From Candidatus Poseidoniaceae archaeon (lineage in GTDB: Archaea > Thermoplasmatota > Poseidoniia > Poseidoniales > Poseidoniaceae), in contig DUIP01000063.1 of NCBI GenBank assembly GCA_013330285.1, positions 1,237 to 17,027 of the forward strand: a stretch of DNA of 15,791 nucleotides. Reading direction: 5' to 3'. The notes under the pieces were generated by a model, which made no database searches, was not told the DNA's origin, and worked only from the letters and a program-made list of their open reading frames with translations. Both the position numbers and the translations under genes were made by a program. Of this stretch, positions 10,545 through 15,428 are shown piece by piece. How positions within the stretch are numbered: the first letter of the stretch is position 1; the number at the start of each line of letters is the position of its first letter.

Positions 10545-10961
10545 ATGGGAACTAAAGCAAACAAGCATCGTGGACGAAACCGATACCATGGACGTGGCAA
10601 GAAAGCCGGCCGTGGTGCAGGAAAGCGTGGTGGACGTGGAAACGCTGGTATCAACAAGCACCGTGTCATGACTCGAATCAAGTACATGCCAAATCACTGG
10701 GGTATGCACGGATTCAACCGACACCCGAAACTCCGCAACGTTCACGTCACTGTGAACGTGAGCCAACTCGAAGCCATGGCTGATGGAAATGATTCCATCA
10801 ACCTCACTGAACTTGGAATTGACAAGATTCTAGGCAGCGGCCGAATCAACACTGCTCTCAATGTCATCGTTGAGGAAGCAAGTGCAAAGGCTGTTGAGAA
10901 GATCGAAGCCGCCGGTGGGTCTGTTGACTCTGGCGATGATGACGAATGGGACGAAGAGTGA
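10545..10961 (+). CDS. rpl15: 50S ribosomal protein L15 (uL15)
   Basis: L15 is a late-assembly large-subunit protein with a Gly/Arg-rich N-terminal extension that threads into rRNA. The 138-residue product shows this extension (KHRGRNRYHGRGKKAGRGAG, then KRGGRGNAGINKHR), the archaeal segment HWGMHGFNRHP and the globular domain (VHVTVNVSQLEAM, GIDKILGSGRINTALNVIVEEAS, KAVEKIEAAGGSV). It ends in an acidic, Trp-containing tail (DSGDDDEWDEE) similar in style to the L32e linker. It is followed by a 67-base spacer to secY. Confidence 0.95.
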   Translation: MGTKANKHRGRNRYHGRGKKAGRGAGKRGGRGNAGINKHRVMTRIKYMPNHWGMHGFNRHPKLRNVHVTVNVSQLEAMADGNDSINLTELGIDKILGSGRINTALNVIVEEASAKAVEKIEAAGGSVDSGDDDEWDEE

Positions 10962-11014: not shown

Positions 11015-11023
11015 AAGGAGGAT
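11015..11023 (+). promoter_or_regulatory. Shine-Dalgarno AAGGAGGAT for secY
   Basis: A strong 9-base match lies 5 nt before ATG 11029. It supports initiation at the distal start and hence the reality of the long SecY N-terminus. The rest of the 67-base spacer (10962-11028) shows no clear TATA box or T-tract. Confidence 0.8.
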
Positions 11024-11028
11024 GAACA

Positions 11029-12975
11029 ATGAAGCACAAGCCAATTCCATGGGCCATTGTCTTGACAGGGGTACTCTACTGGGGTCTCCTTGTCTACTGG
11101 GCATCCGATGATTTGAACTCCACAGGTGCACCGCGTGACGCTGCATTGTTTGGAATCATCTTCTCTCTTGTCTACGTAGGCTACCTCATGGCATGCTTCC
11201 AAATGGACATGCCTGATGGCCTCAAAGATGCACCAGTTGTTGGCCGCTATGGGAAGTTACTCGCATGGCTAGCTCTTGTTGGCATTGCCGTCTTCTATGT
11301 CCGTCCTGAATCGTGGTTGCCCGATGTATGGGGTGGCTATGCTGACGGTGTGGGCTTCTTCCTGGTGGGTATTCTGCTTCTCGGATTTGGCGCAGCAGCG
11401 ATCCTCACATGTTTCATGTGGAGCGGTGACAAAAGCAGCCGATTGTACGCTCTGCGTAGATTCGTCGACGTCTACCCGACCATTACCAAGCCAGAACGCC
11501 ACGTTCGATTCAACGAAAAGATGTGGACCACCACATTTGTTTTGATCATCTACTTCGCCATGACCAACGTCATGCTGTACGGTCTTTCAGGTCAAGCTCT
11601 TGACTTGTTCAGTGGATTCCGTTCCATCATGGCTGGTGCCTCTGGTACCATCATGCACTTGGGTATCGGACCAATCGTCACCGGTTCGATTATCATGCAA
11701 TTGTTTGCTGGTGCGAAGATCATCCGTCTCGACCTTGGAGACACCGAAGACAAGGCCATGTACCAAGGTGTGCAGAAACTCCTCGTCCTGATTATGATTC
11801 CAATCGAATCCATTCCACAGACCTATGGATTCCTCGACCCAACCGAATTCCTCATCGACACCTACGGTCTTGGTTGGGCGAACTTCGTTATTGTAGCCCA
11901 ACTCTTTGCCGGTTCATACCTTGTGTTCTTGCTTGACGAACTTGTCAGCAAGTGGGGTATTGGTTCCGGTATCTCGTTGTTCATTGCAGCCGGTGTTGCA
12001 CAATCGACCTTCGTCGGTACGCTTTCACCACTTGCAGCGACCACAGGCGTGCCATACTCCCTTCAAAACCCACCATCGGGGACACTCCCGATGATCTTCT
12101 ACATGTTCCGTGAAGCGACGAATGCAGAAATGATTTCCAACAATGGTTTCGAAACCATGTTACTGACTCACGTCAATCCGATTGCCGCGTTGTTTTCATC
12201 GATTGTTGTGTTCCTGGTCGTTGCCTATGCAGAATCATCGAAACTCGAATTGCCATTGACGCATGGTAAAGTTCGTGGTCACCGTGGAAAGTACCCGATC
12301 CGTCTCGTTTATGCATCGAACATTCCGGTGATTTTGATGGCAGCTTTGCTTGCGAACATCAACATGTTTTCGTTGCTCTTCTGGAGCCATCCAACCCTCT
12401 CTCAGACACCGATTCTTGGACGGCAGGGTTGGGGTTCAGCCTCTGAATTCATAGGCACCTATGAAGCAGGTCAAACGACGGCTTCGGGAGGGTTTGCATG
12501 GTATGCGAGCATGGTCAATGGTGTCAATGATTGGATGATACCCTTACTGAATCAGCAAGGCGATGTCTTTGGGCATAGTTTGACCCAGATCATGGTCCAC
12601 GTGGTGTTCTATGTGGCGTTGATGACCGTTGGTTCGATGGTCTTCGCTAAGTTCTGGATCGATACGACAAACATGGGTACGAAAGATGTTGCAAAACAAA
12701 TCGAGCGTACTGGTATGCAAATTCCAGGTTTCCGAAAGAATCCTAAGATTTTGGAGAAGATCCTTGAAAATTACATTCCGCCAGTCACCTACTTCTCAGG
12801 TGCATTCGTTGGACTGTTAGCAGCAGGTGCAGACTTACTTGGTACGGTAGGTAACGCGTCGGGTACAGGTCTGTTACTGGCTGTTGGTATCATCCTCAGA
12901 ACATATGAGCAAATCCAGAAGGAACAAGCGATGGAAATGCACCCAATGATCCGTCAGTTCTTCGGAGCAGAGTGA
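11029..12975 (+). CDS. secY: Protein translocase subunit SecY with N-terminal four-helix membrane extension
   Basis: SecY is the pore of the SecYEbeta protein-conducting channel in the cytoplasmic membrane. The canonical part begins near residue 138 (RLYALRRFVDVYPTITKPER, then HVRFNEKMWTT) and shows TM1 (about 167-185), the plug region, LGIGPIVTGSIIMQLFAG with AKII (about 211-232), LLDELVSKWGIGSGISLFI, a cytoplasmic loop around LELPLTHGKVRGHRGKYPIRLVYASNIPVIL, and the C-terminal GFRKNPKILEKILENYIPPVTYFSGAFVGLL to GTGLLLAVGIILRTYEQI. That core is about 510 aa, normal for archaea. Ahead of it lie about 137 residues with four hydrophobic segments (about 5-26, 37-57, 75-92, 107-131), a domain I do not recognise. 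No Shine-Dalgarno precedes the internal Met130, so the long form looks real. SecY at the end of the L15 operon is standard. Confidence 0.95.
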   Translation: MKHKPIPWAIVLTGVLYWGLLVYWASDDLNSTGAPRDAALFGIIFSLVYVGYLMACFQMDMPDGLKDAPVVGRYGKLLAWLALVGIAVFYVRPESWLPDVWGGYADGVGFFLVGILLLGFGAAAILTCFMWSGDKSSRLYALRRFVDVYPTITKPERHVRFNEKMWTTTFVLIIYFAMTNVMLYGLSGQALDLFSGFRSIMAGASGTIMHLGIGPIVTGSIIMQLFAGAKIIRLDLGDTEDKAMYQGVQKLLVLIMIPIESIPQTYGFLDPTEFLIDTYGLGWANFVIVAQLFAGSYLVFLLDELVSKWGIGSGISLFIAAGVAQSTFVGTLSPLAATTGVPYSLQNPPSGTLPMIFYMFREATNAEMISNNGFETMLLTHVNPIAALFSSIVVFLVVAYAESSKLELPLTHGKVRGHRGKYPIRLVYASNIPVILMAALLANINMFSLLFWSHPTLSQTPILGRQGWGSASEFIGTYEAGQTTASGGFAWYASMVNGVNDWMIPLLNQQGDVFGHSLTQIMVHVVFYVALMTVGSMVFAKFWIDTTNMGTKDVAKQIERTGMQIPGFRKNPKILEKILENYIPPVTYFSGAFVGLLAAGADLLGTVGNASGTGLLLAVGIILRTYEQIQKEQAMEMHPMIRQFFGAE

Positions 12976-13076: not shown

Positions 13077-14396
13077 ATGCAGTTCGGGGATTTCTTGATT
13101 CCATTCACCAAACCGTCGAGTCCAGTGCTGTGGATTCGGCCGTATCAAAACCTCTCGATCGAAGCAAAGGGCGATGGTAAGGTCACAACAAAAATCGCAG
13201 TGAAAAGCCCTTCTATAGATTTAATTCGACGCAGTTTGCTCCTTGCACTGGGGCTCTCATTTCTCCTTGGATCGATGGGCTTTGCAGTGTTCAATGTCTT
13301 GGCAATAACAGGTGAATCGGAAGAGGATAAGGACCCCTGCGAATTTTCATCATCTTCTGAATCGATTGAATTTGATGACGTGGGCATTCTCTGTTTGGAT
13401 TACCAGGACCGTTGGTCCATGAGCTCCTTCGAAGATGATGAAGGGCATTTTAGGTATCAAAACGAATGGGGTGGTTTTGAAGAGCATCGTTGGTCTCAAA
13501 CTGGTGATGTGGTGACGTTGTGTGATGTGGATCAAGAGTATGATACCTACTATTGTCTCAATTTAATTCGTGTTCAAGGCACTTCAATGGACCGGAACCT
13601 TTCTCATTATTCATTTTATGATGGTGTCAGCCAAAATATGCCTTCTTGGGTTGAGGAAAAACCCTCCTCAGTTTCAGTGAACTACCAATCTTCGACCGAT
13701 GCACCATTCGGTAATGACCGTCTTTTGTTGGCCTGGGATGATGAACCGGGGTGGGAATCTCTTGAGGTACGCGGGTATGGTGTGTCAAGTAAGAATATCG
13801 ACCACTACATGGCTCCATTAGAACGAGGTATCATCGAAATCGTCTTCCCATACATGCTGCCGATGTTGATTGGGTTTTGCATCTTGGCATTTACGCGTGC
13901 TCGGTTTACTTTAATCGAATTTGATTCGCGGCAATCTCAAATTCAACGTCGCCTCAATATTGGTACGCCTTTGTCGAAGTTTGATTGGGTGAATGTTGAT
14001 TTTCAAAAGTTTACACTGGAAGAGCATAACTTCACCATAACACACCGCAGTTCTTCAGAGGATGGATCTTCAAGGACAACCTATTCCCATCACGAAGGCC
14101 TCAACTTGAGTTGCGTCTATGAGGGCGGCACCCACGTCCTGTTTTTCATAGAAAATAAAAACAAAACCATCCGGAAGGATCTTGTTGATAGCCTCTTCAG
14201 TGCCCTTGATTTGGAATCTCCATTGGATGGCTCTATCATGCCGATGGCTCACTCCAGTCCACCTCCTCTTGAGGGTCAAATCCGTCCACCTCTGGTTTCT
14301 TCAACGCCTGAAGAAGAGACAAAGCCCTTGGCTAACGAGGCTGATTCTGAAGTGGACAGCACCAACGAAACCGGTACGTTCTGGGATCAAGTCTGA
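13077..14396 (+). CDS. Unrecognised two-helix membrane protein with Cys-containing loop and possible PH-like domain
   Basis: The 439-residue product matches no family I can name. Visible parts: a cytoplasmic N-terminus; a membrane helix at about 52-77 (SLLLALGLSFLLGSMGFAVF); a loop of about 170 residues rich in acidic and aromatic residues with four Cys (88, 106, 149, 160), which could form two disulfides if it is outside; a second helix at about 250-273 (EIVFPYMLPMLIGFCILAF). After it a beta-rich stretch of about 100 residues (RFTLIEFDSRQSQIQRRL, VNVDFQKFTLEEHNF, HVLFFIENKNKTI) has the rhythm of a bacterial PH-like domain; this is inference. A Pro/Ser/Glu-rich linker leads to a terminal GTFWDQV. 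ATG 13077 is the first after an in-frame TGA (13065); no good ribosome-binding site is seen, so a later start is possible. Codon choice is less biased than in the ribosomal genes. Confidence 0.75.
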   Translation: MQFGDFLIPFTKPSSPVLWIRPYQNLSIEAKGDGKVTTKIAVKSPSIDLIRRSLLLALGLSFLLGSMGFAVFNVLAITGESEEDKDPCEFSSSSESIEFDDVGILCLDYQDRWSMSSFEDDEGHFRYQNEWGGFEEHRWSQTGDVVTLCDVDQEYDTYYCLNLIRVQGTSMDRNLSHYSFYDGVSQNMPSWVEEKPSSVSVNYQSSTDAPFGNDRLLLAWDDEPGWESLEVRGYGVSSKNIDHYMAPLERGIIEIVFPYMLPMLIGFCILAFTRARFTLIEFDSRQSQIQRRLNIGTPLSKFDWVNVDFQKFTLEEHNFTITHRSSSEDGSSRTTYSHHEGLNLSCVYEGGTHVLFFIENKNKTIRKDLVDSLFSALDLESPLDGSIMPMAHSSPPPLEGQIRPPLVSSTPEEETKPLANEADSEVDSTNETGTFWDQV

Positions 14397-14500: not shown

Positions 14501-14522
14501 TGTAAGAGAAATGGGTGAGACC

Positions 14523-15428
14523 ATGGGTTGGACAGGACCGTTCTATTTCCTCAGTGGTTCGGAGGGAAATGTGTCGCTACCAGCTCTTGAAAAAAAGGAA
14601 GGCGATGTCGCAGCGTACTGGTCGAAAAAGTTTGGTTTAGATCTGTTGATGCCTCAAGCGGATTCAACACCTCCCATATTCATCCATAAGGACCGTGACC
14701 TGGATCCGGAAGAGGCCCATCGGCGTATTCTCAATGGTGGACACGTTTCTGAAGATTCTGCTGAAGTGGCATGCCCGTCTTGCGGTGAATATCTTAGCAT
14801 TGAAGCCCCCTTTGATGAGGCATATGAATGCCCTTATTGTGCCTCAGAGTTTGAATTCGAATCTGAATCAATTGGGGCTCAAGGAGAGCATTTTGATTGG
14901 TACTCGGCTGACCGTGAAAACCTTCTCAGCGCCATTGCTAACAATACAGAATCAACCTCGTATGAGGTGTTGGAACACCGTAAAGGCCGCAGAGGTGAGA
15001 CGATGCTGGAGAACATCTTTGGTACTTTATTCGGTCTTTGGTTCGCCCTCGGTTTCACCATTTTTTCAGGTCTTGGATTGATGATGCTCCCACTAACTCT
15101 GTTTGGAGATTCTGAAGTGCCGTTGCTGTTGGCCCTGATCTTTTCAGTGATCGGTTTTTTCACATTCATTCCCTCTGTGAAATTCGTGTTGCAACTCCTG
15201 ATCGGCTTTTTTTCACCAGAAACGCTCGAAAGATACACCCGTACTCAATACTGTGACCCTGCTCGCAAGTACATCGCATGGGTCGAACAGATTGTAAGTC
15301 CAAGCTTGGGGCGACAAGGGTCGACCTTTGTTCTTTCAGAAACCATTCTTGGTCAAGCGCACACACTGAAAAAATACATGGTGTACATTTCTGAGGACGG
15401 CGGACACGGCGGCGGTGGTGGAGGTTAA
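14523..15428 (+). CDS. Unrecognised zinc-ribbon membrane protein with Gly-rich C-terminus
   Basis: A 301-residue product of no family I can name. Order of parts: a soluble N-terminal region with FYFLSGSEGNVSLPALEK; a zinc ribbon at about 84-106 (CPSC...CPYC, four Cys); an acidic stretch; two long hydrophobic blocks at about 166-193 (LFGLWFALGFTIFSGLGL) and 198-230 (PLLLALIFSVIGFFTFIPSV), i.e. two or more membrane helices; a soluble segment with an isolated Cys244; and a terminal GGHGGGGGG. ATG 14511 is in frame four codons earlier, but the TATA-like box and a GGTGA (14514-14518) four nt upstream both favour ATG 14523. It ends in TAA, unlike the ribosomal genes. Ribbon plus membrane anchor suggests a cytoplasmic ribbon tethered at the membrane; its function is unknown. 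Confidence 0.75.
   Translation: MGWTGPFYFLSGSEGNVSLPALEKKEGDVAAYWSKKFGLDLLMPQADSTPPIFIHKDRDLDPEEAHRRILNGGHVSEDSAEVACPSCGEYLSIEAPFDEAYECPYCASEFEFESESIGAQGEHFDWYSADRENLLSAIANNTESTSYEVLEHRKGRRGETMLENIFGTLFGLWFALGFTIFSGLGLMMLPLTLFGDSEVPLLLALIFSVIGFFTFIPSVKFVLQLLIGFFSPETLERYTRTQYCDPARKYIAWVEQIVSPSLGRQGSTFVLSETILGQAHTLKKYMVYISEDGGHGGGGGG

Follow-up and report, generated by a model that had tools for sequence, protein, structure and literature searches.

The window analysed here, a stretch of 15,791 nt from a Candidatus Poseidoniaceae archaeon, carries secY on the plus strand at 11029..12975, an open frame of 648 amino acids that starts with ATG and includes an N-terminal four-helix extension. A Shine-Dalgarno-like AAGGAGG (11015..11021, plus strand) lies 7 nt upstream of this distal ATG, with an in-frame TGA at 11023-11025. 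Such a site had been reported in the initial annotation before the distal ATG and not before Met130, which is borne out, no GGAGG-like site being present in the 20 nt preceding Met130 (ATG 11416). The uL15 gene, identified by Pfam PF00828 and the list of open reading frames, is directly upstream on the same strand (10545..10961). Downstream of secY are a 439-aa frame without a Pfam match (13077-14396) and a 305-aa frame (14511-15428) with a weak zinc-ribbon match that is below the cut-off (E 0.0013).

Residues 138-648 (11440..12972, plus strand) make up the SecY core. Within it, Pfam SecY (PF00344) spans residues 207-626 with 229 bits and the Pfam plug (PF10559) residues 173-206 with 37.6 bits, both above the cut-off, none of 24 PDB sequences has its best stretch starting before residue 139, and AF2 places H0 at 138-148 and TM1 at 161-179; canonical SecY thus begins at about residue 138, as first proposed. 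This part has the SecY fold in the prediction and is like archaeal SecY/Sec61-alpha (M. jannaschii 1RH5 and 1RHZ) in sequence, predicted fold, plug and cytosolic loops. The unusual length remarked on at the outset is due in part to the extension, and the core itself is also longer than M. jannaschii SecY (511 vs 436 aa). Its excess of about 75 residues lies mainly in external loops 5/6 (approximately 335-380) and 7/8 (approximately 455-520), which are longer in this protein than in crystal-structure SecY. Archaeal SecY usually, though not obligatorily, has no membrane helix before H0, and the M. jannaschii crystal structure has none, whereas four are predicted in Poseidoniales SecY. These make the protein a variant of SecY/Sec61-alpha, which is still a member of that family.

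The four extension helices, with limits from AF2, all lie on the plus strand. Helix a (residues 7-24; 11047..11100) contains conserved Y17, G19, L21 and W24 and is followed by helix b (34-58; 11128..11202). The b-c loop (59-70; 11203..11238), predicted from charge counts to be cytosolic, contains conserved D60 and P62, with conserved G72 and K76 just past it, and leads into helix c (71-90; 11239..11298). Helix d (105-130; 11341..11418) displays a conserved G109-G114-G119 glycine zipper. A linker of the form [YW]-x-G-x(3)-S-R-L-Y and the cytosolic helix H0 (138-148) then occupy 11419..11478, as judged from alignments and AF2. A Wimley-White octanol scan gives hydrophobic segments at 6-24, 39-57, 80-98 and 110-128, so that both methods find the four segments ahead of SecY proper that had been claimed. 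Across 67 four-helix-type extensions the scan returns exactly four segments in 66 and three in one. In Poseidoniales SecY a predicted four-helix bundle precedes the ten-helix channel.

Mean charges in the four-helix extensions are 1.8 basic and 0.3 acidic at the N-terminus, 0.6 and 3.7 in loop a-b, 3.3 and 2.5 in loop b-c, and 0.2 and 1.8 in loop c-d. Being rich in acidic residues, loops a-b and c-d are predicted to lie outside, and a topology with the N-terminus inside would fit most of these values. The stretch after helix d (129-137), predicted to be cytosolic, is net acidic (0.3 basic vs 1.3 acidic); it contradicts the positive-inside rule and misfits a cytosolic place.

The extension appears to be common to the whole order Poseidoniales. 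SecY is matched in 51 of the 53 genomes of the order and, among the matches listed, the match begins no later than query residue 15 in 48 of the 51; a 49th (G037), in which the match is broken in two pieces, also starts there, and match coordinates for G094 and G204 are absent among the matches listed. No loss of the extension is seen in the 49 order genomes with match coordinates. All 53 parsed order-level loci, which are the best-scoring matches and not a random draw, have an open frame that extends 129-156 residues ahead of H0, with a Shine-Dalgarno-like site at the distal ATG in 45. The best 120 of 366 protein matches to residues 1-170 all have SecY domains and, where an organism name is given, are labelled Ca. 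Poseidoniaceae, Ca. Thermoplasmatota or Euryarchaeota archaeon; named four-helix loci include Ca. Thalassarchaeaceae (L189) and Ca. Thalassarchaeum (L206). These names place the window in Ca. Poseidoniales, also called Marine Group II. Residues 1-137 had been described as an unrecognised module, and the extension indeed matches no library family. Presence across a clade with conserved residues, which had been named as support for a real domain, is what the 53 loci display, eight positions being fixed in 64/64 distinct rows (W24, K76, G109, V113, G114, G119, G133 and S137).

The G109-G114-G119 zipper suggests that the helices pack tightly. No charged residues are conserved in the extension helices except K76, close to the end of helix c that faces the cytosol. 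Among 14 close pairs, extension dN/dS is 0.015-0.137 in the 13 where it is computable, core dN/dS is 0.003-0.030 (11 pairs), and extension dN is about 2-7 times core dN in all 14. Between two families of the order, identity is about 34% in the extension and 77-81% in the core (L001 vs L018 and L030). The extension is under purifying selection.

Several other Thermoplasmatota lineages have, in the same position, an extension of two helices. The 184 SecY rows parsed, in some of which the same organism recurs from two genome collections, can be grouped into 67 four-helix, 51 two-helix and 65 extension-free rows, with one (L211, cut by the contig end) left without a state. The four-helix rows, among which L050 is counted with its 129-residue extension, are all within Poseidoniales, 53 by kinship code and 14 by their place in a tree of 164 rows. 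The two-helix rows include MGIII (L135 and L137), DHVE2 (L166, L184 and L200), Ca. Lutacidiplasma silvani (L153), a Thermoplasmatales archaeon (L139) and the further families f3, f6, f10, f18, f22, f25, f28 and f33. Extension-free rows include Methanomassiliicoccaceae (e.g. L146 and L161) and Ca. Methanoplasma (L182), and also four rows whose long upstream open frames are without hydrophobic segments (L073, L077, L092 and L093).

The two-helix form has R-[NDK] near its start and consists of a helix, a short loop often containing W-x-P, a second helix and a linker Y-x-G-x(2-3)-S-[KR]-L-[YH] into H0. M1, R8, Y58 and G60 are invariant in 33 aligned two-helix rows, the Y-x-G pattern being itself part of the rule that defines the class. 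By the octanol scan, 48/51 two-helix rows have two segments and 3 have three, and dN is below dS in all 8 pairs, out of 9, for which both were computable. Extension-free rows begin shortly before S-[KR]-L, without a Y-x-G-type motif. In alignments the Poseidoniales extension, like the two-helix form, sits directly before H0, with a similar Y/W-x-G-x(3)-S-R-L linker. Position, predicted hairpins and linker are thus common to both, and Poseidoniales add a second hairpin and the glycine zipper of helix d and differ in the N-terminal motif. The initial picture of an isolated four-helix module therefore needs revision: the extra domain is real, but its SecY-proximal half stands at the two-helix position with a similar linker.

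Two trees bear on how the domain arose. In an IQ-TREE quick tree of 60 SecY core rows, picked by hand from 164, the four-helix rows form one clade (SH-aLRT 100), with which the MGIII two-helix rows group (SH-aLRT 88). On this tree the presence of an extension changes six times by gain or loss, and a topology that unites all extension-bearing rows in a single clade is rejected (p-AU 0.0015, for a group named after the trait had been seen). The FastTree of all 164 rows, for which 18 rows meant as near-duplicates were dropped by hand (L071 among them by mistake) and L104, cut by the contig end, was too short, places MGIII among other two-helix rows (local support 91) and Poseidoniales beside three extension-free rows (support 75). 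Genome kinship coding puts MGIII and Poseidoniales in one class. Because the two trees conflict, the grouping of MGIII with Poseidoniales is probable rather than certain. One two-helix row and one extension-free row (L080 and L072) are a sister pair with SH-aLRT 99, likely reflecting a recent loss or gain.

Profile comparison with hhalign gives modest values for helices c-d against the two-helix family (44-62% over 19-29 columns) and likewise for a-b (38-74%); the nulls are 0.2-0.8% for reversed profiles and at most 20.5% for SecY-core windows. Helices a-b compared with c-d reach 2-3%, the reversed-profile null being 2.7%, a result that speaks neither for nor against a duplication of one hairpin into the other. 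From the tree and the linker, helices c-d likely continue the older two-helix hairpin, the second hairpin having been added at the base of Poseidoniales. The simplest reading is an early origin of the hairpin in the phylum followed by several losses, or else repeated gains, with a second hairpin added in Poseidoniales; the four-helix domain probably grew from the two-helix version of related archaea.

Secbeta and the core itself show changes of their own. Mean JS divergence between four-helix and extension-free SecY, over helices with approximate limits of our own assignment, is 0.398 for H0 and, among the ten core helices, highest for TM6 (0.350) and TM1 (0.333) and lowest for the lateral-gate helices TM2b (0.079) and TM7 (0.092). 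TM4, for which a change alongside TM1 had been expected, shows nothing unusual (0.246). For Secbeta, of which no match was found in 8/196 genomes, the best Pfam E is at least 2.7e-7 in 50/50 Poseidoniales and 5/5 MGIII genomes with a match and at most 6.4e-8 in 133/133 other genomes with a match, a score that separates Poseidoniia from every other such genome. The Secbeta tail after I-x-P, in 19 genomes hand-picked from the 188 with a match, has 29-36 residues in 9/9 Poseidoniales, 49 in 2/2 MGIII and 22-24 in 8/8 others. By octanol score the MGIII tail has a second hydrophobic segment in L231 (G104) and is below threshold in L232 (G175); MGIII Secbeta probably has a second membrane helix. Outside Poseidoniia, the two-helix lineages that were sampled show an unremarkable Secbeta, so that a general link between the Secbeta change and the extension does not hold.

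SecE scores do not separate the class as those of Secbeta do. SecE is matched in 51/53 order genomes at E ≤0.1, in many below the family cut-off, and not in G000; a separate Secbeta gene is present in 56/60 genomes and an EMC3-like gene in 57/60. Given these separate genes, the extension is rejected as a replacement of SecE, Secbeta or EMC3. No Pfam match to these three proteins is found in 14 four-helix extensions among 6 families at E ≤0.1, nor in 33 two-helix extensions among the first 25 of 29 families.

A tentative reading, which we put slightly short of an even chance, is that the extension would be a tethered accessory subunit, built into SecY and lying on its outer N-half next to Secbeta. 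The glycine and aromatic faces of the bundle would pack on H0 and TM1; once docked, it would stabilise the clamshell and shape the surrounding membrane and protein contacts, in a role likened to that of the accessory hairpins of bacterial SecE and SecG. Probably it neither lines the pore nor carries substrate. The placement is drawn from the divergence of the core helices and Secbeta, which offer hints only: TM6, on the C-half, changes more than TM1, TM4 does not stand out, and lipid-facing helices vary anyway. The ordinary Secbeta of the outside two-helix lineages and the acidic stretch 129-137 also speak against it, as do, for the history, the distance between MGIII and Poseidoniales in the 164-row FastTree and the modest profile similarity of both hairpins to the two-helix family, which favours neither half as the older.

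Accessory membrane proteins of SecY elsewhere often handle emerging helices, and the bundle could likewise work next to the lateral gate, as a TMCO1/EMC3- or PAT-like chaperone within the membrane or as an insertase aid. This seems unlikely; the position of the EMC3-like gene, which is within about 1.3 kb of secY in several relatives and not adjacent to it in the Poseidoniales checked, would suit such a role, but EMC3-like genes are present anyway in 50/53 order genomes and the extension helices are without a conserved charged or polar groove. The little-changed TM2b and TM7 and the absence of conserved helix charges other than K76 weigh mildly against either an insertase or a shielding of the gate; aiding insertion and shielding the gate had both been suggested at the outset, together with the recruitment of a partner.

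Rather improbable, too, is a role as docking platform, serving a partner that other archaea lack, such as a membrane protease, signal peptidase or SRP receptor. Conserved D60, P62, G72 and K76 in or just past the b-c loop, and a Secbeta altered in the same class, are what a platform would explain; no partner gene emerges, with co-occurrence checked for SecE, Secbeta, EMC3-like and SecD/F. We attach about the same low probability to a dispensable, well-folding anchor whose gains and losses would matter little to function, as the six gains or losses, the rejected single clade, the L080/L072 pair and the faster extension dN would suggest. Purifying selection, the eight fixed residues and the lack of any loss in the 49 order genomes speak against such an anchor. 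A translation start near Met130 or a wrongly fused separate gene, for which unusual length alone speaks, is rejected as highly improbable, given the Shine-Dalgarno-like site and TGA upstream, the same fusion in 53/53 order-level loci, the low dN/dS, the clade-wide conservation that refutes an assembly or sequencing artefact, and no clear free-standing gene among 62 short database matches to residues 1-138.

The proposed tethered accessory subunit can be compared with parts of other Sec complexes. E. coli SecE has three helices, with an extra N-terminal hairpin before the core subunit; it is likewise a helical hairpin preceding a Sec core subunit, although the subunit differs. Bacterial SecG, too, is a short hydrophobic hairpin, placed at the periphery of the SecY complex. 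A cytosolic loop connects its two helices, as described in passages of PMC8082313, whereas both hairpin loops of Poseidoniales are acidic and predicted to be outside. Identity with SecG is rejected on this ground, loops a-b and c-d being predicted outside by charge; Poseidoniales also keep a separate Secbeta gene. No name was found for the two-helix SecY extension.

SecY is usually regarded as a fixed ten-helix core bound by other proteins, yet one phylum here shows this core gaining hairpins, and its living members carry zero, two or four extra helices. It is possible, if on balance doubtful, that the universal ten-helix channel was enlarged stepwise to twelve and then fourteen helices in one phylum, with Secbeta remodelled in the same class. 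The three forms are a natural series for what accessory helices add to a translocon, and the extension affects SecY alignments, structural models and phylogenies that include these archaea. In passages of PMC2910488 and PMC8082313 the archaeal channel is SecYEbeta, its SecY made up of two halves with ten segments in all and its Sec61-beta being peripheral; passages of PMC8675477 and PMC11417166 make no mention of an N-terminal SecY extension. Among the open-licence papers listed by full-text searches, no title or abstract opening describes it either, which is no proof of its being unpublished. Marine Group II is, according to the abstract of PMC6461757, the most abundant group of archaeal plankton in surface waters; if the stepwise enlargement is true, one of the most abundant archaeal groups of the surface ocean would export its secretome via a translocon with an accessory subunit inside SecY.

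Additional observations concern other genes related to secretion. SecD/SecF models match in 92/196 Thermoplasmatota genomes, with a best E of 5.5e-11. Most of these weak matches fall in frames of 700-1100 aa, pointing to RND transporters and to a possible absence of SecDF from the phylum. In several other Thermoplasmatota the EMC3/TMCO1-like gene near secY is mostly in frames of 200-300 aa. In the Poseidoniales genomes checked it is away from secY and its open frames measure about 300-460 aa; in G052, a genome in one contig (C1), secY is at 859984-861927 and the EMC3-like match at 1118489-1118899, about 256 kb apart.
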